Part shown: one piece after another, positions 840 to 34,465 of the stretch
Layout: each line of letters opens with the position of its first letter
How positions within the stretch are numbered: position 1 is the stretch's first letter
Source: Oscillospiraceae bacterium
Lineage (GTDB): Bacteria > Bacillota > Clostridia > Oscillospirales > CAG-272
Direction of reading: 5' to 3'
Length of the DNA: 35,906 bases
NCBI GenBank assembly: GCA_015064355.1
Contig: SVSJ01000025.1
Span: 1 to 35,906 of the forward strand
Notes under the pieces: model-generated
The model's input: the letters and a program-made list of their open reading frames with translations, nothing else
The model's database searches: none
Told to the model about the DNA's origin: nothing
Translations under genes and position numbers: made by a program

Positions 840-3251
840 ATGGATTCTGTCTTTCTAAAATTAATTAATATGAGCGTGACGGCCACTTGGTTTGCCCTTG
901 CAGTCATCCTGCTTCGACTATTGCTCAAAAAAGCACCCCGGTGGATCACCGTTGCAATGTGGGCATTGGTTGGCGTGCGGCTCGTCTGCCCCATTTCCTT
1001 TGAAAGTATGCTCAGCCTTGTGCCGAGCGCAGAGACTGTGCCCGCGGACATTGTTTACGCTCAGACTCCCGAAATACACAGCGGCGTTTACATCATCAAT
1101 TCTGTGGTGAATCCTGTTATGTCCGAGTCATTTACTCCGACTCCGGGTGCAAGTGTTAACCCCATACAGATCTTCCTGTTTTTGGCGGAGATAATCTGGA
1201 TCGCAGGTATGATCGGCATGGTCATATACACCCTTGTGAGCTACCTGCTCCTTCACAGAAAGGTGCGAGAAGCCGTTCCATACAAAGATAACGTGTGGCT
1301 CTGCGACAGAATCTCATCTCCATTTATTTTAGGTATCATCCGTCCGCGGATCTACCTGCCTTCAGACATGGCAGAGGCTGATATGGAATACGTCCTCGCC
1401 CACGAAAGAGCCCACATCACCCGTCGGGATCACTGGTGGAAACCTCTGGGTTTTCTCCTCCTGACCGTGTACTGGTTCAATCCTGTTATGTGGATCGCGT
1501 ACATTCTGCTGTGCCGTGATATCGAGCTTGCCTGCGACGAAAAAGTGCTTACAAGTCTTGGCACCGAAATAAAAAAGCCATATTCCGACGCCCTTATTAA
1601 CTGCAGCGTTCCCAGACGTTCTATTGCCGCCTGCCCCCTTGCCTTTGGTGAGGTTGGGGTAAAGACCCGAATCAAGTCTGTGCTTGACTACAAAAAGCCC
1701 GCATTCTGGGTGATCGTTGTGGCACTGGTTTTGTGCGTAGCTTTGGCTGTGGGATTTTTGACCGATCCTGTGAAAAACCTCACCGACGAAAGGCTTGAAG
1801 CGTTTATTGACGTGCAGATCTACGACCATCACGAAACAACCCAATCCGGTGACAATTACCGCTGCATGGACTACACCATACTGGGTGAAGACAAGCGGGG
1901 CGACGAGATCACCGTTTATATGTGGGTGCTGTACGAGGAATACAGCCTTGGGCCGGATGGCGAGCTTATTAACGAAACAGGCGCACACACTATTACCGCT
2001 ATCACAGCGAAAGAGGTAGCGGACTACTACGAACTCGTGGAATACTGGACTCCCCGCGACGGCAACCTTTACGCAAAGGATATAATGGACAAGATTCCGC
2101 CGCGCCTCTGGGGTGAAGCAACCGATCCCCAGAGATACATCGGCAAGCAAAAGGCTAAAACCGAGGAAATGGCGCGGGAATATTTTGCGAGCCAGCCGGA
2201 TACACCGGAGACTGACGGATACTTAGAGTATGTTCCTCAGTATCTCAAAGACTTGCAGGAAAATTATCCCGAATACTTCGGTCTTGATACAACAAAGGGG
2301 CTTGAAGTGTACTGGTATCAGATGGCGGCGGGCAACTACAACTGGGTTGTTCTGCCCGGAAGAGATGAGGAATACACCTGGAAGGATATAGTAGATAAGA
2401 TTGCCACAACAACAGGGGAAATGCGTGCCATCGTTGATTCTTACGGACTGCCGCGGAACCAAGTATCGGTGAAACATTTGGGTGTGCCCCACTCCAGTTA
2501 TATTGTTCCGTATTCTCAGGAATATTACAGCGCAGTGGTAGGGATGTTCTGGAATACCGTTCCCATGATTGACACAAAATTGGTGGTTCCCACCTACGGT
2601 TCCCTGGTGTTTGACATTGACAAGGACGGCCTTGACGAAGTTGTAACCCTCGGTATGGGTCGAACGTCAGGTGTGTTCAGCTTCTCCATAAGCGCCTCTT
2701 ACAACGGCGAGCAGAAGTATACGGATAGTTATATCGCTCCATATTCTGCGCCGCAGTTCTATGTGCGGTCGGAGGACGAAGTGCGCTTGCTCCTCAAAGC
2801 TCAGGCAGAGAAAGGCAAGCCGGAGGTAACTGTACTCTATGAAATCAACGCAGTTAACGGGCACATTATGTTGACGCCGGAGGGAGGCGCGGAGGATCCG
2901 TTTAAGATAAGGAGTTTGCTCTGGCAGGCGGATCCGACGAAAATGCCGTTTAACGGTTACTATCAGGTTGACATTGATGATGACGGAGTTGGGGAGTTAG
3001 CTTGGATCGAATATGACTACAGTTCATCCATTTATTCGATAGTTGTCAGGGATGACGTCGAGCTTGAATATCGAAACACGTTTAATGCGAATTCTCGTTT
3101 CCCCAAAATGACCCTTTTTGACAAGTTGGGTGGTGGAACAAAAGTATGCCTCGAATTGACACCGCGTAATGCAGGAGACTCTCCGATATATTATGATATC
3201 AGCATTGAAGATGGAGAAATAGTGTTGACCGAAATCAATGTAACAGAGTAA
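840..3251 (+). CDS. M56-family (BlaR1-like) membrane metalloprotease antirepressor with large C-terminal extension
   Basis: An 803-residue protein follows the repressor after 3 bp. The N-terminal third is a multi-pass M56 peptidase: membrane segments near residues 12-30, 36-52, 110-138 and 202-224, the zinc motif HERAH at 188-192, then RDIELACDE near 226-234, which supplies the downstream acidic ligand. A last membrane segment lies near 287-308. Residues 310-803 should face outside. They do not show the penicillin-binding sensor motifs of BlaR1. Instead they contain two calcium-loop-like motifs, DIDKDGLDE (about 592) and DIDDDGVGE (about 707), as in FG-GAP/VCBS-type segments. The family role is to sense an outside signal and destroy the BlaI repressor. 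The signal here is unknown, and a beta-lactam is not supported. Confidence 0.85.
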   Translation: MDSVFLKLINMSVTATWFALAVILLRLLLKKAPRWITVAMWALVGVRLVCPISFESMLSLVPSAETVPADIVYAQTPEIHSGVYIINSVVNPVMSESFTPTPGASVNPIQIFLFLAEIIWIAGMIGMVIYTLVSYLLLHRKVREAVPYKDNVWLCDRISSPFILGIIRPRIYLPSDMAEADMEYVLAHERAHITRRDHWWKPLGFLLLTVYWFNPVMWIAYILLCRDIELACDEKVLTSLGTEIKKPYSDALINCSVPRRSIAACPLAFGEVGVKTRIKSVLDYKKPAFWVIVVALVLCVALAVGFLTDPVKNLTDERLEAFIDVQIYDHHETTQSGDNYRCMDYTILGEDKRGDEITVYMWVLYEEYSLGPDGELINETGAHTITAITAKEVADYYELVEYWTPRDGNLYAKDIMDKIPPRLWGEATDPQRYIGKQKAKTEEMAREYFASQPDTPETDGYLEYVPQYLKDLQENYPEYFGLDTTKGLEVYWYQMAAGNYNWVVLPGRDEEYTWKDIVDKIATTTGEMRAIVDSYGLPRNQVSVKHLGVPHSSYIVPYSQEYYSAVVGMFWNTVPMIDTKLVVPTYGSLVFDIDKDGLDEVVTLGMGRTSGVFSFSISASYNGEQKYTDSYIAPYSAPQFYVRSEDEVRLLLKAQAEKGKPEVTVLYEINAVNGHIMLTPEGGAEDPFKIRSLLWQADPTKMPFNGYYQVDIDDDGVGELAWIEYDYSSSIYSIVVRDDVELEYRNTFNANSRFPKMTLFDKLGGGTKVCLELTPRNAGDSPIYYDISIEDGEIVLTEINVTE

Positions 3252-3263
3252 TCAGGAAAAACA

Positions 3264-3287
3264 GCGGGGGTTATCTCCCGCCTTTTT
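3264..3287 (+). terminator. Terminator of the blaI-M56 operon
   Basis: A GCGGG / CCCGC stem (3264-3268 with 3277-3281) is followed by a T-run, 12 bp after the M56 stop codon. Confidence 0.8.
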
Positions 3288-3325
3288 CGTTTAATTTAAC
3301 CCGCACGTTACAAAATATTCGCAGG

Positions 3326-3611
3326 GGAGGATATCATCCTCGGTTCGTTCAGTTTTTATGCACTACGCGTGGGGCGCCCCAGGAGGTTCGTGCCACCCCC
3401 TGGGGAAACCCGGCACTCAAGGAGGGAGGCTTGCGCTGATTCTCCCTCCTTAAGAATCCTCCCTCTTAACACTACGTGCGCAGCAGATTCGCAAGGATGC
3501 TGTCCGTGGCTTCACCAATTTAGTGAGGCTAAGTTGTTTGTTGGGTTTCGAATTAACACGGATAATTAAACCTTTGGTTTAGTTTTTCTGGATTTTGAAT
3601 AGCAAATCCCC
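3326..3611 (+). repeat. Structured ~280-bp repeat, copy A
   Basis: This is a non-coding element sharing sequence and hairpin order with copies B (5158), C (6131, partial), D (6573) and E (6341, inverted). In order it has a GGAGGATATCATCCTC palindrome, hairpin 1 (3377-3386 with 3396-3405, CCCCAGGAGG/CCCCCTGGGG), hairpin 2 (3416-3428 with 3442-3454), a conserved stretch with CTGTCCGTGGCTTCACCAATTT, and an end hairpin AAACC-TTT-GGTTT (3568-3580) followed by AGTTTTTCT. Stem sequences differ between copies while pairing is kept. It could be a structured RNA or a non-autonomous mobile repeat. Any small reading frame through it appears spurious. Confidence 0.75.
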
Positions 3612-3621
3612 CAAAAACCGT

Positions 3622-3722
3622 AGTGGAGGATACCATCCTCCCTGTGTGTTGGGGTTGTTAACGGAATCCCCCCCTTTAGCAAGGGAGGCGTGACTCAAAC
3701 CAATATCTTTTATCTATTATCT
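3622..3722. repeat. Palindrome plus inverted fragment of the second repeat family
   Basis: GGAGGATACCATCCTCC (about 3624-3640) is another member of the palindrome family. GGAATCCCCCC.. ending CTTTAGCAAGGGAGGC (3663-3689) recurs near 22231-22282. CCAATATCTTTTATCTATTATC (about 3699-3720) is the reverse complement of the AT-rich head of the 132-bp repeats near 9769. Confidence 0.55.
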
Positions 3723-3732
3723 AAAACAAAAA

Positions 3733-3750
3733 AGAGACCCTGCGGTCTCT
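3733..3750 (-). terminator. Bidirectional terminator after the esterase
   Basis: A stem AGAGACC / GGTCTCT (3733-3739 with 3744-3750) is flanked by an A-run on the left, which is the T-run for the minus-strand esterase, and TTTT on the right. Confidence 0.8.
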
Positions 3751-3762
3751 TTTGCGTATGTT

Positions 3763-4623
3763 TTATTTTTTCTTTTTCTTGCCGGCTTTGAGGGCAATGA
3801 GAACAGATGCAACAGCTCCTGCGATACCACCGATTGCGGCAAGCTTTTTGATCTTTCCGCTCTTTTCCGCCTTCAGTCTGCGCTCCTTGCGTGACTGGGC
3901 GAACAGCCACTCAAGATTACTCATATCGGAATACACGTGATCCCAGATACCGTGCTGCCAACCGTCAAGCTCGGTGTAGTCGATAAGCTGGCCGCCTTCC
4001 TTTTTGATCGAAGCAAACATACGGCGTGTGCCGCGAACAGGAACAGCAGGGTCGTCGGAGCCGTGGAACGTGCGGATCGGGATTCTTGTGAGAAGCTTTG
4101 CGTAAGCCACGTCACCGCCGCCGCAAACAGGCATACCTGCCGCGAATCTTGCACCATGACGGGAGAGCATATCCCACGTACCGTAACCGCCCATGGAGAT
4201 ACCTGTAATATACACTCTGTCTGAATCTACATTGTACTGCTCCATGCACTCGTCAAGAACCATACACAAGGTTTCAAGCTGTACAGATTCGGGAGTGTCA
4301 GCGATGGAATAGTTTACGTTTTCCCACGGGGTGAGAACCCACTGGCTGTTTTCAGGGCACTGGGGCGCGATCACGATAGAATCGTAAACGGGAGATGCGG
4401 GATCGTTAAACATATTCTGGATAGCAACGGTAAGCTGAAGCTCGTTGTCGTCTCCTCTTTCCCCTGCTCCGTGGAGGAACACCATAAGGGGGTACGCCTC
4501 GCCGCAGTCATAGTTCTTGGGAACGTAAATGCAGTACTTGAGGGTGTATCCGTTGTTGGTGAATTCCCTCTTCTCGAAAATATCTTTTACATTATAAACT
4601 GTATTGCGTTCTACTTTAAGCAT
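3763..4623 (-). CDS. Alpha/beta-hydrolase esterase (PHB-depolymerase/prolyl-oligopeptidase-like) with C-terminal membrane tail
   Basis: This 286-residue serine hydrolase has an oxyanion-region motif FLHGAGERGD (residues 49-58) and nucleophile elbow GISMGG with Ser143. The probable acid is Asp190 or Asp191 (FHGSDDPAVPV), with His224 (DGWQHG) completing the triad. The layout matches bacterial feruloyl/PHB-depolymerase-like esterases. Residues 256-281 form a hydrophobic helix ending in five lysines, with a basic run before it. The enzyme is therefore probably tail-anchored, with its catalytic domain in the cytosol. No signal peptide is seen. The ATG has a GGAGG site, and a promoter with 17-bp spacing lies upstream. 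It stands alone between terminators. The substrate is unknown; an acyl or carbohydrate ester is plausible. Confidence 0.8.
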   Translation of the reverse strand: MLKVERNTVYNVKDIFEKREFTNNGYTLKYCIYVPKNYDCGEAYPLMVFLHGAGERGDDNELQLTVAIQNMFNDPASPVYDSIVIAPQCPENSQWVLTPWENVNYSIADTPESVQLETLCMVLDECMEQYNVDSDRVYITGISMGGYGTWDMLSRHGARFAAGMPVCGGGDVAYAKLLTRIPIRTFHGSDDPAVPVRGTRRMFASIKKEGGQLIDYTELDGWQHGIWDHVYSDMSNLEWLFAQSRKERRLKAEKSGKIKKLAAIGGIAGAVASVLIALKAGKKKKK

Positions 4624-4651
4624 AATAGCCTCCGTGGGTTATTTTTTTCTC

Positions 4652-4680
4652 ATTATACCACAGGTGCGTATCAATTTCAA
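4652..4680 (-). promoter_or_regulatory. Promoter of the esterase gene
   Basis: Read on the minus strand, TTGAAA (4675-4680), 17 bp, TATAAT (4652-4657). The ATG is about 30 bp downstream. Confidence 0.8.
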
Positions 4681-4746
4681 CAACTGACCTGTGTTTTTCT
4701 GAAATTTTATTGCAAATGCAGTCGATAGAAAATCTCGTGAACCCTC

Positions 4747-4775
4747 TTGACTTAGGTGATGTGTTGTGATATAAT
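4747..4775 (+). promoter_or_regulatory. Promoter of tRNA-Met
   Basis: TTGACT (4747-4752), 17 bp, TATAAT (4770-4775), ending 10 bp before the tRNA. Confidence 0.85.
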
Positions 4776-4785
4776 CTTTTCGTTG

Positions 4786-4859
4786 GGGCCATTAGCTCAG
4801 TTGGTTAGAGCTCCCGGCTCATAACCGGTCGGTCCTAGGTTCGAGTCCTAGATGGCCCA
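4786..4859 (+). tRNA. tRNA-Met (CAT anticodon), elongator type
   Basis: A 74-nt cloverleaf with perfect acceptor pairing (GGGCCAT with ATGGCCC) and discriminator A. The D arm is GCTCAGTTGGTTAGAGC, the anticodon loop is CTCATAA, and the T arm is CTAGG-TTCGAGT-CCTAG. CCA is not encoded. A CAT anticodon could also belong to tRNA-Ile2 after lysidine modification; sequence alone does not settle this. It has its own promoter and terminator, and its last 21-22 bases recur at 4995. Confidence 0.93.
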
Positions 4860-4867
4860 TAAAAAAG

Positions 4868-4893
4868 GAATCACCTACGGGTGGTTCTTTTTT
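4868..4893 (+). terminator. Terminator after tRNA-Met
   Basis: Stem GAATCACC / GGTGGTTC (4868-4875 with 4880-4887) followed by six Ts. Confidence 0.88.
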
Positions 4894-4970
4894 ATGCCTA
4901 TTTAGATCGAGAAGCCAGATCCGAGACGTTATCTTTACTAAGGAATTTGCAATTTCTTTATACGACTCGC

Positions 4971-5017
4971 GAATTTGGCGAAGCCAACATTCATGGTTCG
5001 AGTCCTAGATGGCCCAT
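4971..5017 (+). repeat. Second copy of the tRNA-Met 3-prime end plus a small hairpin repeat
   Basis: Positions 4995-5017 repeat 4838-4860 exactly: 23 bases covering the T loop, T stem and acceptor 3-prime strand. Just before it, GAATTTGGCGAAGCCAACAT (with a TTGGC-GAA-GCCAA hairpin) occurs; this unit recurs near 5104-5126 and inverted near 6172-6194. A tRNA 3-prime end repeated downstream is the usual footprint of site-specific integration. The 135 bp in between hold no gene, so the insert may have been lost. Confidence 0.7.
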
Positions 5018-5025
5018 AATTCCGT

Positions 5026-5046
5026 AGGGGAGGATACCATCCTCCC
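5026..5046. repeat. GGAGGATACCATCCTCC palindrome
   Basis: One of the dispersed short palindromes, here preceded by TAGGG. The gene-free stretch from 5047 to 5157 holds only the GAATTTGGCGAAGCC repeat (about 5104-5126) besides this. Confidence 0.55.
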
Positions 5047-5157
5047 GCGTGTTGATGTTAAATGTGCTATTCGCACGGGGTAAAAAAATTGTAGGGGATG
5101 GCCGAATTTGGCGAAGCCAACATTCACTCGACGTCCCATTTTGTTTGTGTTTTATTT

Positions 5158-5435
5158 CACTACGCGTGGGGCGCAAAAAGCACTACGCGTGAGGCGCACA
5201 AGGATGCTCAAGCCGCACCCTTGTAAATCCCGGCTTTTAAGAGGGAAGACGAGCAAGCTCGATTCTCCCCTCTTAAAAATCTCCTCTCTTGGCACTACGT
5301 GCAGGTGATATTTGTTAGCTCACCTTCCGTGGCCGCACCAATTTAGTTTAACTGAACCGTTAATTGGGCTTCAAATTAACACAGGTAATTAAACCAGTGG
5401 TTTAGTTTTTCTGGATTTTGAATAGCAAATCCCCC
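5158..5435 (+). repeat. Structured ~280-bp repeat, copy B
   Basis: This has the same architecture as copy A but with different stems. Hairpin 1 is ACAAGGATGC / GCACCCTTGT (5198-5207 with 5215-5224). Hairpin 2 is TTTTAAGAGGG / CCCTCTTAAAA (5235-5245 with 5268-5278). Then come GCAC-TAC-GTGC (5292-5302), AGGTGA / TCACCT (5303-5308 with 5320-5325), GTTAATT / AATTAAC, and the end hairpin AAACC-AGT-GGTTT (5391-5403) with AGTTTTTCT. A GGAGGATACCATCC palindrome follows at about 5450. The element starts with a doubled CACTACGCGTG-GGCGC unit. Confidence 0.75.
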
Positions 5436-5495
5436 AAAAAACCGTAGGGGAGGATACCATCCTTCAGTTACGTTGGGCATTAACCGAACGGCGGA

Positions 5496-5519
5496 CTGTC
5501 GAGGACGCCAGTCCCTACG
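5496..5519. repeat. Short dispersed repeat GGACTGTCGAGGACGCCAGT
   Basis: A 20-bp imperfect palindrome (ACTG..CAGT ends) followed by CCCTAC. The same unit occurs at about 22601-22622. It lies just downstream of the DUF3784 gene. Confidence 0.6.
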
Positions 5520-5540
5520 AGTAATTGCATGTTTTGGAAT

Positions 5541-5849
5541 TTAGAATACTCCTTTATTGTACTTTTTTTGCACCGCAACAATGCAACCTATACCACCCAC
5601 CAAACCTATGATAAGTATAGCAACAGCAAGCATAAGCAAATTTTCAAACAGTCCTATAATGCCGCTAAGCAGCATTACAGTTGCGATAACAAGCATTGCC
5701 TTTCCAAAGGCTTTTCCGTAGGCTGATTTATTTGTGACTTTTGCTTGGTGGTAATCGTGAATCAAATCCGTTTTTCCCTTGTAAATTGCAATACCCAGTA
5801 CTGTAAACAGAACTGCAACCAGAAACAGAATAATAGAATATAACAACAA
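5541..5849 (-). CDS. Small membrane protein, DUF3784-like
   Basis: This 102-residue protein has three predicted membrane segments (about residues 3-20, 50-64 and 68-91) separated by a polar loop (KGKTDLIHDYHQAKVTNKSAYGKAFGKA). The layout, including the short charged loop after the first segment, resembles the DUF3784 family of Clostridia, whose function is not known. The likely start is a TTG at 5849-5847, because AAGGGGTG lies 7 bases upstream and no ATG fits. No signal for an operon partner is seen; a deformylase relic lies 30 bp upstream. It sits in a repeat-rich, gene-poor region. Confidence that it is a real gene is fairly good; the family call is moderate. Confidence 0.7.
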   Translation of the reverse strand: MLLYSIILFLVAVLFTVLGIAIYKGKTDLIHDYHQAKVTNKSAYGKAFGKAMLVIATVMLLSGIIGLFENLLMLAVAILIIGLVGGIGCIVAVQKKYNKGVF

Positions 5850-5880
5850 ATAAACACCCCTTTAAATTCTTATTTATCGG

Positions 5881-5976
5881 TTAGATCAGCACCCCATTGT
5901 AATGGTCGACTTCGTGCTGTATTATTTGTGCCGTCCATCCTTCGTAATTCTTGGTACGGGTCTGCATCTCCAACGT
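5881..5976 (-). pseudogene. def: Peptide deformylase C-terminal relic
   Basis: The last 30 or so codons before the stop at 5881 read like the end of peptide deformylase: EGWTAQIIQHEVDHYNGVLI carries the metal-binding HEVDH and the family-typical NGVLI end, preceded by a TLEMQTRTKN strand. Upstream the frame loses all resemblance to the enzyme: no GxGLAAxQ or EGCLS motif is present, and the frame runs into unrelated sequence near 5980. Deformylase removes the formyl group from nascent proteins and is normally 150-190 residues. This is therefore a decayed 3-prime fragment, not a working gene. Confidence 0.75.
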
Positions 5977-6130
5977 TTGATAAATAATTATACCACAGAA
6001 ACGGCTTAAACTCAATATGATTCTATGAACAAGGTAAAAAAGAAAAGGGGTATGCAAACCCTGAAAGATAAGTGTCATAGTATGCACCGCTTTTTGCACC
6101 GCTTTTCTATGGCATCCATATTATAAGCAT

Positions 6131-6307
6131 CTTCCGGGTGATATTTGTTAGCTCACCTTCCGTGGCATCACTGAATGTTGGCTTCGCCAAATTCGCGAGG
6201 TTCCTATGACAAGGAGGAACCTCGGCGTTCAAAACCGTTAATTGTGCTTTGAATTAACACGGATAATTAAACCAGTGGTTTAGTTTTTCTATATTTAGAA
6301 AAGCAAA
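6131..6307 (+). repeat. Structured repeat, copy C (3-prime part, with a replacement)
   Basis: GGTGATATTTGTTAGCTCACC (about 6137-6157) and the later block through AATTAACACGGATAATTAAACCA (6252-6274) match the 3-prime half of copies A, B and D, ending with the AAACC-AGT-GGTTT hairpin (6269-6281). Hairpins 1 and 2 are absent. The CACCAATTTAGTTT block is replaced by a segment with the inverted GAATTTGGCGAAGCC repeat and a new hairpin, GAGGTTCCT / AGGAACCTC (about 6197-6223). This looks like shuffling between repeat families. Confidence 0.65.
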
Positions 6308-6340
6308 TGTTTGAGAAAATATTTGTAACAAATCGAACCG

Positions 6341-6529
6341 AGGCGGGCTAGTTTTCACTATGCGTGAAGACTGTAAGCCACGGACAGCCGTACTAATAAG
6401 CTTCCACTCTCGTAGAAAATAGGAGGGATTCTTAAGGGAGGACAGGCTCTGACTCTCCTCCCTTAAGCGGCAGGTGATTCATAAGAGGCCTTGACGCGGA
6501 GGCCTCTTATGTGCCTTGCGCATAGCACG
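6341..6529 (-). repeat. Structured repeat, copy E (inverted, 5-prime part)
   Basis: On the minus strand this segment gives hairpin 1 (CATAAGAGGCCT / AGGCCTCTTATG, 6480-6491 with 6500-6511, perfect) then hairpin 2 (CTTAAGGGAGG / CCTCCCTTAAG, 6431-6441 with 6457-6467, perfect), then CTGTCCGTGGCTTACAG. Hairpin order, spacing and flanking words match copies A, B and D although the stems differ. The 3-prime half is missing. Confidence 0.7.
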
Positions 6530-6572
6530 GGTGGGATATATCATTTTGTGCGAACAAAAAGAATCCCACCCT
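6529..6572. repeat. Long hairpin next to copy E
   Basis: GGGTGGGAT / ATCCCACCC-type ends (about 6529-6538 with 6563-6571) enclose TTTTGT-GCGA-ACAAAA. No gene is adjacent; its role is unknown. Confidence 0.55.
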
Positions 6573-6861
6573 CGAGGATTTCATCCTCGGTTCGTTAGGT
6601 TTTCATGCACTGCGCGTGGGGCGCACAAGAGGTGTTCCATGTCCACACCTCTTGTGAATCTCCGTCCACTTAAGGAGGGAGGCTTACGCTGATTCTCCCT
6701 CCTTAAGAATCCTCCCTCTTGGCACAACGTGCAGGCGAGGTTTATTAGTTTACCTTCCGTGGCTTCACCAATTTAGTTTGGCTAAATCGTTAGTTCAGGT
6801 TCAAATTAACACGGGTAATTAAACCAGTGGTTTTGTTTTTTCTGGATTTTGGGGGGCAAAT
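6573..6861 (+). repeat. Structured ~280-bp repeat, copy D
   Basis: The cleanest copy. It has a GAGGATTTCATCCTC palindrome (about 6574-6588), hairpin 1 CACAAGAGGTGT / ACACCTCTTGTG (6624-6635 with 6645-6656, perfect), and hairpin 2 CTTAAGGAGGGAG / CTCCCTCCTTAAG (6669-6681 with 6695-6707, perfect). The conserved block ACCTTCCGTGGCTTCACC follows, then the end hairpin AAACC-AGT-GGTTT (6821-6833) with a T-run. The T-run makes the end resemble a Rho-independent terminator. Confidence 0.75.
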
Positions 6862-6974
6862 TTTCGTGCAACCATAGGGTGTAGGGGCTATGCGCCAGGT
6901 GCATTTCCATACAAAATCACACAAAATTCCCGATAAGTTAACAATTCCGTCTTTTATTCTGTGCGGAAATATAC

Positions 6975-26993: not shown

Positions 26994-28181
26994 TTAATAA
27001 TACACACTCATCTTTTCCATGCTCTCCTTCTTATGACTTGGGAGTGCGTGGGCATAGAAATTTAAAGTGGTAGAAGCTTGTGCATGACCGAGGATAGAAG
27101 ATAGAACCTTTATGTCCATACCTGCTTCAAGTGCTCTTGTAGCGAATGTGTGACGTAGTGCGTGGAAGTTGATATCAGACACTCCGGCTTCTTTGAGAGT
27201 TCTCTTGAAGAGGTCCTCATAGGTTCTCGGTTCATACACAAGTCCCATAGGTGTAGAAAACACGGGTGTTGAAGGTGACATTAACACTCCATTCTCACAT
27301 AGCATTTCTCTTTGCCGTTCTCTGTATAACATTAGGTCATCCCAGACTTTAGGAAACAGGGGAATAACGCGTCTCGAGTTCTTGGATTTGGGCGCTCTAC
27401 TCACAAGCTCTGTTGTTGTACCTCCCCCTTCTTCCCTGCTCACAAGGAATCCGTTTTCGTCAACCTTTTGAAGTCTGCCGACTGTTCGTCTGATCTTGAT
27501 GGTGTGGTCTGTGAAGTCTACGTCGTCCCATTGCAGCCCTAGCATCTCACCCATTCTAATACCTGTGCTGACTGTGAAGATAATACCGAACGCAGCCAGG
27601 GTGTTTGAACCGAGAGAGGCTTTTTGTAGAGCTGTTTGTTCCTCGACTGTGAGAATCACCATCTCTCTTTGAGGTGTGGAAGGTAGCTTCACTCCATCCA
27701 AAGGATTCATATTCAAGTGTCCGTTTACGACCGCTTGAGCAAGGCAGTTGTGGAGCATATTATAGATATTCCGCAAGGACTTGGGAGATAGTGGCTTATC
27801 GTCATCGCTTCCCTTGTACTTTTGATTGAAGAACCTCTGCATCGTTTCAACCGTCAGGGCTGATAGCTTTATCCTACCAAGCTTCGGTTCCAAGTGAAGT
27901 CTCACATAACTCTCATATGATATGTAAGTGGACTGCTTAACAGTTGGGAGAGCATATATCAACAGCCATTCCCTGAGCCACTTGGAAAACTTCATGTTAG
28001 AGTATCCAATGCGTCCGCCCTTATCAATCTTTGAGAGTATCTCTGTAAGGCGTACTCTCACTTCTTCAAACGTTGCTCCATACACAGCACAACGCTTTCC
28101 GTCCAATGTGTATCGTCCCATATACCTTCCGTCGGACCGCCTAACAATTGAACCTTCTTTATTTCCTTTTCTTTTTGCCAT
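26994..28181 (-). CDS. int: Tyrosine-family site-specific integrase
   Basis: This 395-residue tyrosine recombinase has an N-terminal arm-binding region (residues 8-45, GSIVRRSDGRYMGRYTLDGKR), a core-binding SAM-like domain (about 64-155) and a catalytic domain (about 175-385). The catalytic residues can all be seen: Arg209 (TGIRMGEML), His340 and Arg343 (HALRHTFA), His366 (LGHAQ) and Tyr376 (TLNFYAH); Lys265 or Lys267 is the likely beta-strand lysine. It should act on the tRNA-fMet core to insert or excise the element. The gene ends 48 bp from the attL repeat. Its ribosome site is poor (AAGGG directly before the ATG). The protein looks intact. Confidence 0.95.
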   Translation of the reverse strand: MAKRKGNKEGSIVRRSDGRYMGRYTLDGKRCAVYGATFEEVRVRLTEILSKIDKGGRIGYSNMKFSKWLREWLLIYALPTVKQSTYISYESYVRLHLEPKLGRIKLSALTVETMQRFFNQKYKGSDDDKPLSPKSLRNIYNMLHNCLAQAVVNGHLNMNPLDGVKLPSTPQREMVILTVEEQTALQKASLGSNTLAAFGIIFTVSTGIRMGEMLGLQWDDVDFTDHTIKIRRTVGRLQKVDENGFLVSREEGGGTTTELVSRAPKSKNSRRVIPLFPKVWDDLMLYRERQREMLCENGVLMSPSTPVFSTPMGLVYEPRTYEDLFKRTLKEAGVSDINFHALRHTFATRALEAGMDIKVLSSILGHAQASTTLNFYAHALPSHKKESMEKMSVYY

Positions 28182-28225
28182 CCCTTAAAGGTAATAGAGT
28201 AAATCTATCGCCTTTAGGCTTTTTA

Positions 28226-28519
28226 TTATTTATTGAAGAACAATTCAATCGCCTCTGCCGCAAACCTCATTCCAAGACGGAATCCCACAGCAAATGCTTC
28301 CCTCGCAGTGATGTTCTCTAGTTCATCAATACAATCGTCATAGCGACTGAAACGCTCCACCTGCGCTTCCGTCAGGCTCTCACACAGCCTCTCGCGGTTG
28401 GTGTTGATTGGCTCAACTAGCTCCACAACTTCTGCCGTATCGCAGCCTGAGTTTTTTAATCCATTCGGAACTGCCTTCCCCGGAACGGAATTTAGCATTA
28501 ACTTTTGACCGGATCGCAT
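28226..28519 (-). CDS. Small mobile-element protein, DUF6809-like
   Basis: A 97-residue protein. Residues 28-97 (ETINTNRE-like region, LCESLTEAQVERFSRYDDCIDELENI, EAFAVGFRLGMRFAAEAIE) resemble small proteins carried next to integrases in Clostridia elements (DUF6809-type: acidic helices ending in an xFxxGFRLGxRxxxE motif). The N-terminal 27 residues do not fit and the usual start is missing, so the 5-prime end may be altered or the start may lie elsewhere. The function is unknown. It lies 44 bp upstream of the integrase in the same direction, with a promoter about 180 bp further up. Confidence 0.6.
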   Translation of the reverse strand: MRSGQKLMLNSVPGKAVPNGLKNSGCDTAEVVELVEPINTNRERLCESLTEAQVERFSRYDDCIDELENITAREAFAVGFRLGMRFAAEAIELFFNK

Positions 28520-28701
28520 ATCTCAAAATCGCGAAAAACCATTGAAAATCAATGTTTTTCGGCACAAAACGCGTCGATCCGACGCAAAAAGCGCAATCAA
28601 AAATAAATGAGCTTTTGACGTGCCATTTATGCGCTTGGAGGGATGCTGGAGGGATGTCCCCCAACACCACGACACAAAACAACATCAATCGACACACATA
28701 T

Positions 28702-28730
28702 ATTATACCAACTTTCCCCGCTATTGACAA
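28702..28730 (-). promoter_or_regulatory. Promoter upstream of the small protein and integrase
   Basis: On the minus strand TTGTCA (28725-28730), 17 bp, TATAAT (28702-28707). Confidence 0.75.
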
Positions 28731-28754
28731 TATATTTTGGGAAAGTGGTTGACT

Positions 28755-28937
28755 ATGAAAACGAAAGCTTATTATGAACAACTCTTTGCAAACTACCCCG
28801 ATATTGTCACACTTGAAGAATTTCGTGAAATGCTCGGCGGTACACAGGCATTGCTTGCCGGTTTCTCTGTATCCTCGTACGACTTACTCGATGTCACACC
28901 AAGGTCTCACCAGGCTGAGTGGGAAAAACGTAATTAA
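28755..28937 (+). pseudogene. Truncated excisionase-like HTH fragment
   Basis: The first 29 or so residues (KTKAYYEQLFANYPDIVTLE, then EFREMLGG) match the start of the helix-turn-helix excisionase-like proteins of Clostridia elements, which continue with a DST-A-RKL recognition region. Here the match ends at about 28850, and the remaining residues (TQALLAGFSVSS and on) do not fit. In another frame just downstream, INLTKEERQITIRYGIAQ (about 28930-28989) resembles the start of another small element protein, also cut short. This looks like a junction left by deletion. No good ribosome site is seen. Confidence 0.6.
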
Positions 28938-29105
28938 CCTTACAAAAGAAGAACGCCAGATAACCATTAGATATGGGATTGCTCAATAGGGGCAAGGCTA
29001 TTTCTTTCGCAACTTTTTGTGAAATTATAAAAAACAGCAGAAATATTCACGTTTTTGTGGTATCATATTATAGAAGTTGGTAGTTTTTTGCTTGCAAAAA
29101 TCCTA

Positions 29106-29123
29106 CTTTAGTAGGAAGATAAA
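29106..29123. repeat. Small perfect hairpin in a gene-poor gap
   Basis: TCCTAC-TTTA-GTAGGA. The stretch from about 28990 to 29265 has no convincing gene; it holds this hairpin and, before it, an AT-rich segment. Confidence 0.5.
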
Positions 29124-29265
29124 AACAGTCATCTATGTTAAAATAATACTTGTGGCGATCTGAATCTTCCGGTTTACAAAAAACATAACAATCTCGAATA
29201 ATCTATTGATATTCTCATCGGAGTTTCTCCGCTTCCGCAAAATCGCCAATGCAAGAAAGAGGTGA

Positions 29266-29754
29266 CTACAGCTTGAACCCCAAAAACAAAAATACACGAA
29301 TGAATGTCCTGCTGGTTGCTGCAAGATTGAAATTAATAGTGCTGTAGCGCCACCGATCAACGATCGCTCTGCCTTCGGTCACGTCCTCTTTCAACTTGTA
29401 GTAATTGGGGTTATTGAATCTTGCCGGAGCTTTCCCAACATCAAGATTTCCTGCGATTATTTCATCGTTAATGGAGTATCCGTCGTAAGCGTAGTCAACA
29501 AGCAAAAGCTTAGTCATATCAATGGCGATCCAGGCACCTTGTATTCCACGTATGCCTTCACCTTTCAGGCGATATTCGACGATTACAGTGTCGTATGCTG
29601 CGCCGCTACCGTCTTTTTCGATGTTCCACTTCTCACCCGAATCTTTCACATTTATATTTGTGCCAAATCCGTCGCCTGTTTTCGCACAGACTTGTGTTGG
29701 TATCACGCCAAGCAGGATAATTAATACGAGTACCAATATGGATGCTCTTTTCAT
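29266..29754 (-). CDS. Secreted protein with cohesin-like region, probably truncated
   Basis: A 162-residue protein with a signal peptide (MKRASILVLVLIILLGVIPT, cleavage after QVCA, about residue 24). The mature part has FGTNINVKDSGEKWNIEKDG and RGIQGAWIAIDMTKLLLVDYAY, a layout seen in secreted beta-sandwich (cohesin-like) proteins. From about residue 145 the sequence (LAATSRTFIRVFLFLGFKL) looks out of register, and the protein stops with no anchor. A frame with membrane-like residues continues in another register up to about 29135. A frameshift or deletion at the 3-prime end is likely. GGAGGG precedes the ATG. It is the last gene of the surface operon, 124 bp after the sortase. Confidence 0.6.
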   Translation of the reverse strand: MKRASILVLVLIILLGVIPTQVCAKTGDGFGTNINVKDSGEKWNIEKDGSGAAYDTVIVEYRLKGEGIRGIQGAWIAIDMTKLLLVDYAYDGYSINDEIIAGNLDVGKAPARFNNPNYYKLKEDVTEGRAIVDRWRYSTINFNLAATSRTFIRVFLFLGFKL

Positions 29755-29878
29755 TGTTCCCTCCGAAAAATTACGCTTGTATCTATTTTTATTATATCAT
29801 ACTAAAGAACCCATGTCAATTTTTGTTGGCAATAAAAATTATAAAAACAACGGCCAATTTTGTGACCGTTGTTTTAAT

Positions 29879-30565
29879 TTATTCTTTATCTGCTCTGTTG
29901 CAAAATACCATAATTCTGGATTTTCCAGTATAGTTACAGGTATACAGCACAAGATCAAATCCGCTTTGCTGTACTGCGGCTACGTCATCTCCGGGAACAG
30001 TCTCGATCTTCTCTACTTTAAATGCAACACAGACGCCGTTCATGTCTGTAAATATTATTGAGTCTCCCAGCTGTAGTCGATCAAGCTTGCCAAAGTGACG
30101 GGTATAATTATGGCCCGCAATAACCAAATCATTACTCTCAAGTGAGCCGAAATGTCTGCACGGCGCCGACATTAGTTTTTCGTTGCTCCAATCTGCCATA
30201 ACCGGCAATGTAATACCAATGGTCGGCAAAGCAATATATCCAATATACAGGTCTCCGTCTATCTCTACGGCTGGAGTTTGATTGGTCGAGGGTTCAGTCT
30301 CGGTGACAACATCCGTTTCGAAATCAGTATCTGTTTCGGCAGTTATACTTCCCTGTTCATCCGGTAATTCCACCGATGCGGGAGTTGAATGCCCACCTTT
30401 GCTCCGCTCGTCGATCGAATTTTTCACCTGTTCGAGAATTATCTCTGAACTCTTCCCTGCGTTGTAATCTTCTTCGGCATTATGAAACACCAAACAAATC
30501 GCAACTGCAATGAGAAGCACACCCAGAACAATCAATATCAAGCCTGTTTTTTTACGCATCTTCAT
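29879..30565 (-). CDS. Sortase
   Basis: A 228-residue sortase with an N-terminal membrane helix (residues 7-27), a long acidic, Thr/Glu-rich linker (about 30-100) and the catalytic barrel (about 101-225). His152 (IAGHNYTRH), Cys210 (LVLYTCNYTG) and Arg217 (KSRIMV) form the active site. It cleaves a sorting signal of the LPXTG kind and links the protein to the wall or to another pilin. The start codon overlaps the end of the Cna-B gene by 14 bp, which points to coupled translation and to that protein as its substrate. The class (D, or another pilin-type class) is not resolved. The linker is unusually long. Confidence 0.93.
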   Translation of the reverse strand: MKMRKKTGLILIVLGVLLIAVAICLVFHNAEEDYNAGKSSEIILEQVKNSIDERSKGGHSTPASVELPDEQGSITAETDTDFETDVVTETEPSTNQTPAVEIDGDLYIGYIALPTIGITLPVMADWSNEKLMSAPCRHFGSLESNDLVIAGHNYTRHFGKLDRLQLGDSIIFTDMNGVCVAFKVEKIETVPGDDVAAVQQSGFDLVLYTCNYTGKSRIMVFCNRADKE

Positions 30566-32060
30566 TCTTTTTCTTTTTGGACATCAGCACAACGCCAAGT
30601 ATCACCAGAGCCAAGCCAAGGCCAATAATAACGGGAATGGGCCAATTGAGCTGTCCGGTTTGTAGCAAGGTCGCGGTGTTGGTTATGGTTACCACGTTAC
30701 CGCTCACAGAATATGATGGCGTATAGTTTTTGGGAATGTCAACTTCAATTGCCTGCCAATTTCCGTCAGCAGATAAATCCCGCCATGTGTATGTCCAATT
30801 GTTCCATTCGCCGAGCCACACGCTCTCGGTAGCATCGTCACCGTTATAAAGGGTTATGCAAACACCTGTAGGACGGTTGTTTATGCTATCCTCGTCGCCC
30901 TCCCAAACTTTGTTAACTGTCAGGGAAACTTTCTCTTCGGTCAAGGGCTGCTTTGTGTTGGTGATTATAACAGCGTCATCAGCGGCTATATATGTGGCAG
31001 CATATCCCCTGGGCACTGTCGTTTCCGCCACGCTCCAATTATATGACGACTCAAGATTGCTCCATGTATACGTCCAATCGTTGGATTCATTAAGTTTTAC
31101 AAAAGCAACATATTCTCCATCACAAATGAGCGCTACGGTAATTTCATCATGAGAATCTTTATCATCTATCCAGATCTTCTTGACGGTCAAATCCCGTGGC
31201 TGAACTGTTTGTGATGTCTTTGTGTTTGTTATGGTAGTTGTGTGGCCGGTTATGTCATAAGAAGCTGTATATCCGTCAGGAACAATCTCAACGACACTCC
31301 AGCTATATCTTCTATCAAGCTTTGACCAAGTATATGTCCACTGGTTCATCTCGGAAAGCTTGATTTCCGCAAAAAATTGTCCGTCTCGCAAAAGAGCAAC
31401 TGTCACGCTATTCGGTCGTTCTGCAACACTGTCACCAACCCACAGCTTACGAACTGTAAGTCTTGTACGGTCATTCTGAGGAGGCTTAGGCAAGCTAAAC
31501 GCTTCGGCAGTAAAAACTACGTCAACCTCACCCATTCTTGATGCGTATTCATTTCCAAGCTCAATTGGAACTTCAATGACGAAATCAAGCTTCGCAGACT
31601 CAGTATACTTAAGCTTACAGAGATAAATATTCCCTGTTTCAAGAGCGGGATCAAAAGGCGCTCCGTTGAACACAAGGTCTCCATCACAGTAGACTTTAAG
31701 GTTTAACTGCGACAGGAAATCCTGCATTGACAATACGGTCTCTCCTGCATCCTCTAAGGCTGAGCTAACAGGATTTTTCGCATCGTCATGAGGCTCGAAC
31801 TTAAGATATACTTTTATGTAGTCGGTGTCTATGGCAGCATTCTTGATATTCACCGTTTCTGTGGCAACATCTCCGGGCAACAAACCTTTTAGGTTTACAA
31901 AAAGATCGTTGTCGGAGTACTCGCTGCCACCTTGGATGGTAAGTCCGTCTCTTATTCCACTAAACGTGATCTCAGGTACGTCAGCAAAAACCGAAACCGA
32001 TAAAACACACGCCAAAAGTATCACGAGAAGAGCCGGAATGAGTTTATTAATATATCTCAC
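30552..32060 (-). CDS. Wall-anchored surface protein with TasA-like start and three Cna-B domains
   Basis: This 502-residue protein starts at a GTG (32060) after a strong AGGAGGAG. It has a signal peptide (cleavage after SVFA, about residue 26), then a region resembling TasA/camelysin beta-sandwich proteins (about 28-190, NDLFVNLKGLLPGDVATETV). Three Cna-B domains follow (about 203-285, 292-370 and 380-460), each starting LTVxKxW and ending TITNT or IITNT. The end is LLQTG-QLNWPIPV, a membrane helix and KKKK, the wall sorting signal. LLQTG lacks the usual proline of LPXTG. The Cna-B domains normally form isopeptide bonds and stalks. This is the probable substrate of the sortase next to it, so it may be a pilus or adhesin. 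Confidence 0.92.
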   Translation of the reverse strand: MRYINKLIPALLVILLACVLSVSVFADVPEITFSGIRDGLTIQGGSEYSDNDLFVNLKGLLPGDVATETVNIKNAAIDTDYIKVYLKFEPHDDAKNPVSSALEDAGETVLSMQDFLSQLNLKVYCDGDLVFNGAPFDPALETGNIYLCKLKYTESAKLDFVIEVPIELGNEYASRMGEVDVVFTAEAFSLPKPPQNDRTRLTVRKLWVGDSVAERPNSVTVALLRDGQFFAEIKLSEMNQWTYTWSKLDRRYSWSVVEIVPDGYTASYDITGHTTTITNTKTSQTVQPRDLTVKKIWIDDKDSHDEITVALICDGEYVAFVKLNESNDWTYTWSNLESSYNWSVAETTVPRGYAATYIAADDAVIITNTKQPLTEEKVSLTVNKVWEGDEDSINNRPTGVCITLYNGDDATESVWLGEWNNWTYTWRDLSADGNWQAIEVDIPKNYTPSYSVSGNVVTITNTATLLQTGQLNWPIPVIIGLGLALVILGVVLMSKKKKNEDA

Positions 32061-32100
32061 AATTATCTCCTCCTATCGAAACACAGAGGTTCTTTGCCGT

Positions 32101-32616
32101 TTAATTAAACGACGTAATACCCCACGCGTCTGTTATTGCATTGGCAGGCTCGCTCTGCACTGCAGACGCAAGCACCTCAATGTGGAGCGTGTATCCTGTC
32201 GGAGCATCAGTTAATGCTATGAACTTTGATACAATCGCTGTGGTACAACTGTTAGCCGCAACCGGTTCTGTGAAATAGTAAAAGCTGTCACTGCCAACAG
32301 TCCAGTTGCTACCGCTTGCCAGTTCGTAGTCAGTTCCTAAAACAGGAGATTTCCAATACACGTTGCCAGCATCATCCTGCCAATTCACTACGAGCGCTGC
32401 TCTGATATACGCTGAAACATCGCCTGTGTTTCGTATTGTAATCGGATTCTCGCCTTCAACTGCACAGCTCACAGATGTTGGGTTAAAGGTGTTCTTTAAA
32501 GGGTTAGGCAGATCAACTATGTAAGCAAGGGTGACGCCAACCGCTGTGCAAGCCAAAAGCAGCAAGGAAATCGTCAGCACTGCTGATTTAGTAAAGCGAA
32601 ATTTGCTCTTTTTCAT
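32101..32616 (-). CDS. SipW-type signal peptide protein, TasA/camelysin-like
   Basis: A 171-residue secreted protein. Its start KKSKFRFTKSAVLTISLLLL followed by GVTLAYIVD is the SipW-dependent type of signal peptide. Mature residues 38-165 include NTFNPTSVSC, ITIRNTGDVSAYIRAALVVNWQD and SNWTVGSDSFYYFTEPV, the beta-sandwich pattern of TasA/CalY-like fibre proteins. These proteins form matrix fibres or pilus-like subunits in Bacillota and need the signal peptidase SipW, which is not in this window. GGAGGGTG precedes the ATG. It is followed 40 bp later by the Cna-B gene, whose start region has the same fold style. Confidence 0.88.
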   Translation of the reverse strand: MKKSKFRFTKSAVLTISLLLLACTAVGVTLAYIVDLPNPLKNTFNPTSVSCAVEGENPITIRNTGDVSAYIRAALVVNWQDDAGNVYWKSPVLGTDYELASGSNWTVGSDSFYYFTEPVAANSCTTAIVSKFIALTDAPTGYTLHIEVLASAVQSEPANAITDAWGITSFN

Positions 32617-32631
32617 TTGTCACCCTCCTTA

Positions 32632-33480
32632 TCATTTGTTTTTAGTTCTGGATACTTTCTTTTTGTTATCTCCGCCAAGCCAATATGCCTGTTGTACCTG
32701 TTTGCTTACACGGGTCTGAACAAAGGTCACCGTATTATCCGCGCCTGCTACTGAGGTGGTTTTGATAACTTTTGTACCGCTGCTTGTGTAACGCCAGCTC
32801 CAACCGTCCCTCTCAGTAACTATATAGTTATCAACTGGAAGATCTTTGATCGTTACAGATCCGTTGCCATGTACTATTACAGTAACAGATGCATTGTATT
32901 CAGTACCTCTTACATCAAAGATATAGGCCTGATTTTCATCAATGCTTTTTGTTCCACTGACTGTAATTGTCAAGTCAGCAACTGCACGCTCAAATTTTGC
33001 GTAATATATGGTGCCGTCGCTCCACAATTCGTCGCCAGCCTTTGTTGGGACAAAAGATGCATCCTTTGTTATCACTTGGGTGCATATTGCATCCTGATAC
33101 CAACCAACGAAAACATAGTCAGTATTTGGTACTGCTGTTGCGCCAACGGGAGTTCCTGTTACAACGCCAATGGTTTCGGAAGTTTTTGTGAGAGTTCCGC
33201 AACCTATCGGGCCAATTACGTAATACTTTATCATAGCCTGGTTTTCAGTCCACTGTGCCGTGAGCGTAACGTCGCCATACATTCCCGCGGTAATATTTGT
33301 TCCGCCGAGATATTCGTCGTTTACGGCCCAGAGACCGTTAGCTGCGGTTACATTCCAGCCATCGAATTCATATCCGGCCTGCGCCATGGTTTCCAGCTTG
33401 ATCGGATCGTTAATGGTGTATTCCTTCGAGGTCGGAGCTGTACCAACTTCAGAAACATAAGTGATGGTGTAAAAGTAGAG
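32632..33480 (-). pseudogene. InlB-repeat protein, C-terminal part, start missing
   Basis: The frame is open from 33480 to its stop at 32632 (282 codons) but begins directly after a stop, with no start, signal peptide or ribosome site. It starts in the middle of an InlB-type (Listeria-Bacteroides) repeat: YTITYVSEVG...PIKLETMAQAGYEFDGWNV, then a second unit (IKYYVIGPIGCGTLT... NTDYVFVGWYQD) and a beta-sandwich end domain (about the last 110 residues). It ends KKKVSRTKNK without an LPXTG motif. These repeats occur in secreted or wall-linked adhesins. The gene belongs to the surface operon. Its 5-prime end has been replaced by an EssC-like fragment in another frame. An internal ATG at 33387 could give 251 residues but has no good ribosome site. 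Confidence 0.75.
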
Positions 33481-34316
33481 TTAATCCCTTCTTTAATCAC
33501 ACTGCTTAAACCTACGCTTGTGCTGACTAACATTGCGAGAGACATTGTCAATGAAGGTCCAACAGCCAAAATAAATGGAACAGGCTTTTGCGGTGAAAGC
33601 GGTGTTGGTGGATCTATGACAATTCGTGGGTAATCAACAGATCTCAAAATTCGTGGAGCACTATTGAATACCCAATGCGTTATTTCATCATCACATTCTT
33701 TGATCGTATGAGTTGTACAAGAAGGCGATACCGTGTGTTCACCATAAATAATGACATATTCACCCATAAAAATTATGAGAGTCCCCATAATTCGAACAGC
33801 ATCACCAAAGTCGAGAGATTTTTCTTCGAACTCAAAGCCATTCACATACATATATCCGTTGGAGGATAATTTAGTAATTGCTACAGAGTGAGCGTTTGGA
33901 GTTATTTGCGCGTGTTGACGAGAGATAGCGGGATGCTCAATAATAATATCGCAAGAAGATGAACGACCAATTGTAATAGATTCATTTAATTTTACAACTG
34001 AATATTTTTCGGAATAATTAGACAGATACAAAACATAAAAAGATTTATTTATTCGAGGGTTTAATATTTCAATTAAATCGTTATGTTTAATAAGATTTTC
34101 TCTAGTCGCGAGCATTTCGCCATTAATCTTTATACAAAATGAATGAGTGAAGTCGCAGCAACATAGCTTCACACCATCAACATTATCTTCCGCGGTAAAG
34201 TTCAATATATTTTCATCAATATTTAGTTCTTTGAAAAACGGAAATAAAAACACATTACAATTCCCGATTAAGTCATCATACACAGATATATACTCGGAAT
34301 TATACACAATATACAT
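33348..34316 (-). pseudogene. EssC-like N-terminal fragment (FHA domain), joined out of frame to the InlB gene
   Basis: The start ATG (34316) follows GGAGAG and begins YIVYNSEYISVYDD. Residues 112-185 are an FHA phosphothreonine-binding domain with IGRSSSCDI (116-124) and SRQH (132-135). An earlier region (1-100) is the first FHA-like module. RILRSVDYPRIVIDPPTPLSPQKPVP (split near residues 230-248) and GPSLTMSLAMLV lead into a membrane helix. This order (FHA, FHA, proline-rich strip, membrane pair) is that of EssC, the type VII secretion ATPase. The homologous part ends at about residue 279 (33480); the last 43 residues read the InlB gene in the wrong frame. The ATPase domains, more than 1000 residues, are missing. 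A natural deletion or an assembly join are both possible. Confidence 0.75.
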
Positions 34317-34389
34317 GGTTTGCTCTCCATTTCGCACATAAGTTCATCAAAATACAGTGAACGCAACTTCACAGTTTTTCACTACCAGA

Positions 34390-34444
34390 AACTATAGTTA
34401 TTATTTCTCATATTAACTATAGCATATTGCAGAATAAAAGTCAA
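34390..34444 (-). promoter_or_regulatory. Surface operon promoter with palindromic operator
   Basis: On the minus strand TTGACT (34439-34444), 17 bp, TATAGT (34416-34421). A perfect 10-bp palindrome AACTATAGTT (34390-34399) and a half-match AACTATAGCA (34415-34424, overlapping the -10 box) form a larger inverted repeat with CTATAGTTA / TAACTATAG arms. The divergent XRE gene starts 40 bp away, so its product is the likely binder. Confidence 0.75.
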
Positions 34445-34465
34445 TGTTTTACAATATTTTTGGTG

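Follow-up and report, generated by a model that had tools for sequence, protein, structure and literature searches.

The 35,906-nucleotide contig SVSJ01000025.1 of an Oscillospiraceae bacterium (assembly GCA_015064355.1), the whole of which is called the window here, carries between positions 3,326 and 6,861 several copies of a hairpin-rich repeat. We found that this repeat belongs to a family that is dispersed through the genome in alternating arrays, far above chance expectation, and in which both a hairpin stem and a second, interleaved helix covary. The structure looks to be under selection, and what is preserved is probably a folded single strand, which may be RNA or may form one end of a mobile DNA element. 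We favor, at a probability of roughly one half, the reading that these are non-autonomous palindromic mobile repeats whose ends must fold.

Copy number, dispersal and anatomy

The window is contig C22 of an incomplete genome, G000 (2.17 Mb in 57 contigs, 79.9% complete). We searched this genome with three units of the window, D, A and E, and ran profiles of D and E over stretches fetched from it. The three units gave 40, 37 and 31 matches, respectively; those of D include itself, and its best other match was 90% over 289 nucleotides (nt), with an E value of 2.5e-109. The D and E profiles gave 56 and 60 local hits, and since these fall largely at the same places, D and E are homologous. D-profile hits above 60 bits numbered 46, in 22 clusters. 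All 22 sit between mechanically called open reading frames (ORFs); six also overlap mechanical ORFs of 85-185 amino acids, one starts at a contig end, and no ORF longer than 185 amino acids lies inside a cluster. Ten neighboring genes were looked up and nine could be named: gyrA, gyrB, dnaN, rnpA, rplS, rpsJ, a potA-like ABC gene, an rsuA-like gene and ligA. The tenth, at window position 7035, had no NCBIfam match, and we take it to be zapA. The presence of 46 hits in 22 clusters of one genome, beside unrelated genes, in alternating orientation and with a patchy distribution among genomes (below), argues for a mobile repeat.

Where units diverge, their 5′ ends share GAGGATTTCATCCTC; where they converge, their 3′ ends share AAACC-N3-GGTTT. 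Convergent pairs are imperfect palindromes in which the starts of hairpin 1 (H1) lie ~200-410 bp apart, and both H1 modules were parsed in 18 pairs. The clean form of the element, best seen in G008, a genome of the same genus, runs from a mini-hairpin (m2) through H1, a linker beginning GAATC, hairpin 2 (H2), second arm and center into its mirror image. As in repetitive extragenic palindromes (REPs) and the REP doublets that form hairpins (REPINs), the units make inverted doublets, both in convergent pairs and in alternating arrays. As in miniature inverted-repeat transposable elements (MITEs), there are terminal inverted repeats, here two inverted arms spanning the whole element; where exactly an element stops is blurred by its mosaic borders. 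A 461-nt stretch around one convergent pair folds at -208.6 kcal/mol (z -13 versus shuffles), chiefly as the long palindrome, and this fold alone is no argument for RNA. H1 and H2 each come in a limited number of alleles, differently combined among units (by eye). A general intrastrand triplex in H2, considered as a further structure, was rejected by eye.

Units in the window

The units of the window are as follows; the loop-linker rule is described below.

3326..3608, + strand: unit A; m2 mini-hairpin 3361-3377; H1 3378-3404; loop GTGCC (3390-3394) complementary to linker GGCAC (3412-3416).
5158..5435, + strand: unit B; m2 twice, at 5158-5174 and 5181-5197; H1 5198-5224; loop AAGCC (5210-5214) complementary to linker GGCTT (5232-5236).
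6135..6308 (approximate), + strand: unit C; truncated, 3′ part only; convergent with E, the junction being the AAACC/GGTTT palindrome.
6330..6575, - strand (inverted): unit E; H1 6481-6510 with a ATAAGAGGCCT stem; H2 of the CTTAAGGGAGG type; outer hairpin GGGTGGGAT..ATCCCACCC; H1 allele outside the loop-linker rule.
6573..6861, + strand: unit D; 5′ palindrome GAGGATTTCATCCTC common to E; m2 6608-6624; H1 6625-6655, with an allele outside the loop-linker rule; H2 6669-6707.
6821-6833, + strand: 3′ palindrome within unit D, AAACC/GGTTT, with a T-run.

An initial annotation of the window, made from its letters, had described copies A, B and D and an inverted copy E. All four are present, and the truncated C is a fifth. 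The annotation also placed hairpins 1 and 2 at constant positions with stems differing among copies, saw fixed words between them (CCGTGGCTTCACC and AATTAACACGG, which recur with few changes) and ended the copies in AAACC-N3-GGTTT with a T-run; we recovered each of these features, the last in A, B and D. Where it gave the H1 stems as paired, those of A and of B have one A.C mismatch each. The copies are not separate genes: D and E both begin in one common palindrome and convergent units share AAACC/GGTTT, giving alternating arrays.

Other repeats touch the units. One, CGAATTTGGCGAAGCCAACATTCA, occurs in direct and inverted orientation at window 4970-4993, 5103-5126 and 6172-6195 and replaces part of some units (C, and units in stretches L026, L034 and L036). 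An identical foreign hairpin (CCGAGGTTGCGAAGCAACTC...) lies within H1 of two E units, breaking it (L028 3246-3536 and L035 16800-17041); either this is a nested insertion, or a single broken unit has been copied. Hairpins of the GTAGGGGAGGATACCATCCTCC type, short and preceded by a GTAG tag, adjoin units at window 3624-3644, 5025-5045 and 5443-5463 and look like ordinary REPs.

Covariation of the H1 stem

The first sets of H1 modules came from a stem search with filters on arm letters and were later widened to 60 modules. Eighteen distinct modules with a 10-bp stem and a 7-nt loop, read as the reverse complement, had 98.9% of 270 cells paired (100% in the stem alone, 96.7% in the loop-linker helix), compared with 37-52% in slid registers. 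Changes on both sides occurred in 11 of 15 pairs (53 cells); none of 500 shuffles reached the covariation score, and three of 500 reached the count of pairs with two-sided changes. Thirteen modules with a 12-bp stem and a 4-nt loop were paired in 98.6% of 208 cells, and the same 18 rows on the strand of the initial annotation in 93.7%; in both alignments the covariation score was again reached by 0 of 500 shuffles. Over the three alignments, slid registers paired 33-54% of cells. The number of further pair types was unexceptional, with 168, 92 and 447 of 500 shuffles reaching the count in the three alignments, in that order. The covariation therefore goes beyond column make-up and register controls, as a new structured RNA family should. 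The initial annotation's claim that paired changes reflect preserved structure is supported by these controls and those below, with relatedness of modules left in, and is extended by a pairing that it had not described.

Loop-linker pairing

Beyond the H1 stem lies a linker to which the loop is complementary, giving the A-B-A′-B′ layout of a pseudoknot. The paired letters vary: GTGCC/GGCAC, AAGCC/GGCTT, GAGCC/GGCTC, GCGCC/GGCGC, GCGGC/GCCGC, GTTGC/GCAAC, GTGG/CCAC and GCGCAG/CTGCGC. The longest Watson-Crick run averaged 3.78 over 46 distinct loop-linker pairs, versus 2.74 (standard deviation [sd] 0.11) when partners were permuted. The observed mean was reached by 0 of 2000 permutations, which here and below leave the relatedness of modules in place. 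Runs of at least 4 bp occurred in 28 of the 46 (permuted average 7.5, maximum 16). A second set of 50 modules was drawn from 60 later stretches found by covariance-model search, partly in the same genomes; eight were hairpins unlike H1 and were retained for this test. Its 29 further distinct pairs, these unrelated hairpins included, averaged 3.31 versus 2.46 (sd 0.14; 0/2000), with at least 4 bp in 15 of 29 (permuted average 4.4, maximum 10).

The m2 mini-hairpin in front of H1, missing in two of 60 modules, shows the same interleaving. Among 30 distinct hairpins with 17 distinct stems, all 19 distinct loop-linker pairs had at least 3 bp (for example TACGC/GCGTA, TATGC/GCATA, TGTGC/GCACA and TGCGC/GCGCA), with a mean of 3.68 versus 2.88 permuted (0/2000). 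The m2 motif CACTRCGCGTGGGGCGC is also frequent in unrelated genomes, apparently in hairpins of their own (L115, L118, L129, L206 and others in Cephaloticoccus; L108, L109, L111 and others in Acidobacteriaceae TAA 166).

The strand that probably folds

Mismatches in the H1 stem favor one strand. The 54 distinct H1 arm pairs pooled from the window's genus, g1, contained 21 A.C-type mismatches (19 AC, 2 CA), no G.T and one C.T at six positions from the base; seven distinct arm pairs of the eight non-H1 hairpins (two C.T, no A.C or G.T) were excluded from this count. Related alleles share mismatches, so the independent events are fewer than 21. In g118, a genus of another family, nine arm pairs held two A.C, no G.T and one C.T. 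Because A.C on one strand is a G.U or G.T wobble on the other, this evidence favors folding of the strand opposite to the one on which the initial annotation read the repeat, and H1 keeps its fold better there. For m2, permitting A.C extends many of the loop-linker helices, and permitting G.T extends none. The one-sided wobble of the H1 stems and the loop-linker covariation are part of our case for mobile repeats with folding ends.

In two of the 18 convergent pairs, both in genome G012 and with the same alleles, A.C occurs in both inverted arms. The favored strand thus seems to be whichever leads outward in a given arm, and not the same one along the whole element. Ends processed as single strands, or a pair of diverging transcripts, would account for this more readily than a single RNA would, and the two elements count toward the mobile-repeat reading. 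A single transcript running through the element with strand-specific wobble was rejected, since both G012 elements have A.C in each arm's own orientation. C-to-T bias on the outward strand could produce the same mismatches and would likewise make that strand special.

Distribution and shared sites

A covariance model of m2-H1-linker, R1, was searched against 25 genomes of g1 (E ≤ 0.001, at most 150 candidates scored per genome) and 394 genomes of the order (at most 13 candidates, stricter filters). Within the genus, 14 of 25 genomes, G000 included, had 5 to 104 matches each, and 11 had none. In the order sample 18 genomes matched: G000, seven of ten g118 genomes and ten others. Those in g118 were the sole strong matches outside the genus (best E 1.2e-12 to 9e-9), the remaining ten being weaker (7.5e-7 to 7.8e-4).

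The 70-nt ACAAGAGGTGT module of D recurs at 97% DNA identity in several copies of genome G005, another member of the genus, while eight of 13 orthologue-like protein pairs flanking units in G005 and G000 are less than 82% identical, which again argues for mobility. Unit D had no DNA match in phage or plasmid records, and one 22-letter pattern had no hit in viral contigs; an origin from phage or plasmid was rejected on these grounds. The motif CACTRCGCGTGRGGCGC is not specific, occurring in at least 115 stretches, most from unrelated genomes. Among the matches listed, those that continue into H1 (by eye) are SIG667, SIG711 and RGIG2226, a 'Clostridia bacterium' from goat colon. RGIG5299 (sheep colon, G058) has a hairpin of its own, whose fit to the loop-linker rule was judged by eye.

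Interpretation

In our favored reading, an element consists of two inverted arms, each carrying the hairpin series (m2, H1, H2 and so on). On the strand leading outward from the arm center, m2 and H1 each fold into a hairpin, and the loop pairs with the segment next to that hairpin on its center side. This fold may be recognized, as single-stranded DNA at element ends, by a putative DNA-processing enzyme acting in trans (none was found), and amplification with module exchange between units may have produced the mosaic. A more specific proposal, which we regard as unlikely, is that the family belongs to Oscillospiraceae-type Clostridia as a mobile element of a new class, with ends recognized through a self-complementary loop-linker code: each module would carry its own guide (the loop) and matching site (the linker), free to change as long as they match, with modules swapped like cassettes.

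Several observations weigh against the mobile-repeat reading. G000 and G005 both have units at no fewer than four intergenic positions: between gyrB and dnaN, and upstream of rpsJ, the potA-like gene and the window-7035 gene. In G008 the potA-like site is filled as well, and in G005, G008 and G012 the gap beside rnpA/rpmH and dnaA (the last two names being presumptive) holds units. The composition of the units differs at these shared sites, and other hairpin repeats crowd the same gaps. Such sites could be permissive or long occupied, and the elements old and retained; a by-eye comparison of a few loci showed no clean empty site. No transposase was identified: Y1_Tnp occurs in six of 14 carriers, its absence from G001, G003, G005, G010, G011, G012, G015 and G019 being read in incomplete genomes, and in two of 11 genomes without matches. 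The role suggested for DNA ends is drawn by analogy. Two amplified H1 alleles, ACAAGAGGTGT..CCGTCCAC of D and ATAAGAGGCCT..CCTGCCGC of E, break the loop-linker rule. In g118 the pairing was not significant (3.23 versus 3.03, reached by 348 of 2000 permutations; 13 distinct pairs, with two of 17 hits unparsed), and single cases fit there (GCGGTT/AACCGC, GAAGT/ACTTC). The segment upstream of H1 also scores 2.87, with at least 4 bp in 11 of 46. Wobble-type neighbors of the H1 loop-linker helix are mixed and weakly skewed (13 A.C versus 7 G.T), as are H2 mismatches (14 A.C-type versus 7 G.T-type in 38 hairpins, some of them not H2).

The main rival, which we think unlikely, is a structured multi-copy noncoding RNA family, with predicted transcription outward from arm centers, H1 and m2 as small pseudoknots or docked loops, and copies that are RNA genes spread within the genome. 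An RNA would be expected to show two covarying interleaved helices with G.U tolerated in H1 on one strand only; the same kind of pairing is seen in different species of the genus, and unit A lies outside both neighboring gene terminators. Terminator-like sites are also in excess in 3250-6950 (14 found, 4.3 expected), at least four of them representing two gene terminators at 3264-3281 and 3730-3753. Promoter-like sites in the same region show no excess (5 found, 5.2 expected), a pair of diverging transcripts would be required to cover the inverted arms of each element, copies differ greatly in make-up and truncation, and, by reasoning, fully paired loops of 4-5 nt are sterically hard to accommodate in a simultaneous pseudoknot. 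A known RNA family was rejected, as no Rfam family accounts for the units: at gathering score, Rfam 15 gave three tRNAs in the whole window and nothing on the units, and at E up to 1 it gave, in 3250-6950, a tRNA and three further hits, weak and well short of the gathering score, among them mir-9441 on unit B (22.6 bits versus 91). To that extent the initial annotation was right to name no RNA family. It had left a choice between RNA and a structured mobile repeat; the latter is suggested by the dispersal of the units, their arrays of alternating orientation, the mosaic of modules and the patchy occurrence among genomes, and of the signals of transcription the terminator-like ones alone are in excess.

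We give little credence to passive palindromes, in which template switching or gene conversion would keep hairpin arms alike with no selected fold. Whole stems do differ at once, as discrete alleles, and units look mosaic by eye, as this would have it. Correction of arms does not, however, predict loops complementary to a linker beyond the stem (0/2000), nor 21 A.C versus 0 G.T, although strand-biased C-to-T mutation could give the latter. Less credence still goes to chromosome-organizing sites or bidirectional terminators, as proposed for clusters of REPs and bacterial interspersed mosaic elements (BIMEs). Intergenic alternating palindromes, several near gyrA, gyrB, dnaN and rnpA, would suit this reading, as would the excess of terminator-like sites, but the other neighbors looked up are mutually unrelated and 11 of 25 genomes of the genus have no match.

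In this dispersed bacterial repeat, pairing of the interleaved, pseudoknot type is preserved through changes of letters, and a strand signal accompanies it. The repeat offers a handle on the old question of whether palindromic repeats are kept as RNA or as folded DNA ends, testable here by strand, enzyme and module borders, and the covariance model supplies hundreds of natural variants. It would also warn that strong covariation in a repeat family need not mean RNA genes.

Other features

An exact 25-bp copy of the 3′ end of the tRNA at 4786-4859 (window 4838-4862) lies 157 bp downstream of it, at 4995-5019, an arrangement resembling attachment sites that bracket a small remnant. In G005, the region upstream of the orthologue of the window-7035 gene (L221 500-1100) holds several degenerate repeats of tRNA ends (GGAGGTTCGAGTCC). 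Window 26994-34822 encodes an integrase (PF00589), a sortase (PF04203), a Cna_B protein, an FHA protein and a helix-turn-helix regulator adjoining two tRNAs, and is probably an integrated mobile element.

Comparison with known systems

A search of open-license papers found no element of matching layout. The nearest kind is that of REPIN-, BIME- or MITE-like repeats, from which the family differs in having no GTAG tag and no consistent Y1 transposase. REPINs are described as inverted REP doublets linked to the Y1 transposases called REP-associated tyrosine transposases (RAYTs), extragenic, amplified and with compensatory changes, and a supplementary legend contrasts a hairpin with a clover fold (PMC3116915). 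Recognition of folded single-stranded REPs, with a choice of strand, has been described (PMC8266576). Our units resemble REPINs in forming long palindromes from inverted hairpin units, in tandem clusters, with compensatory changes, outside genes and amplified within the genome (PMC3116915). Unlike REPINs, their arms are ~150-290 nt long with several hairpins and interleaved loop-linker pairing. By eye, the module lists show no GTAG at the H1 foot, which reads GGCGC/ACAA and GAATC; letters resembling GTAG are confined to some of the m2 hairpins. A RAYT-driven REPIN as such was rejected because Y1_Tnp does not track the elements; the single Y1 gene (PF01797) of G000 lies on contig C1, where the searches with D, A and E list no match.

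BIMEs share the regular spacing and alternating orientation of units (PMC2817692), whereas the modules here are not REPs and keep their structure while the sequence changes across species. At IS200/IS605 ends, the target is recognized by base pairing with a short, changeable segment of the element (PMC5934647); in the present family the hairpin loop itself would act as such a guide, and the element contains no transposase gene. GOLLD, ROOL and OLE are large, multi-helix, ornate bacterial RNAs (PMC12286853), whereas the repeat, with no Rfam match at E up to 1 in 3250-6950, comes in dozens of copies with inverted arms and arrays. Repeat motifs of Borrelia plasmids are likewise intergenic, with compensatory changes and proposed conserved RNA structures (PMC2674063). 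They belong to another organism and are described as stem loops, in an abstract that does not speak of interleaved pairing (PMC2674063).

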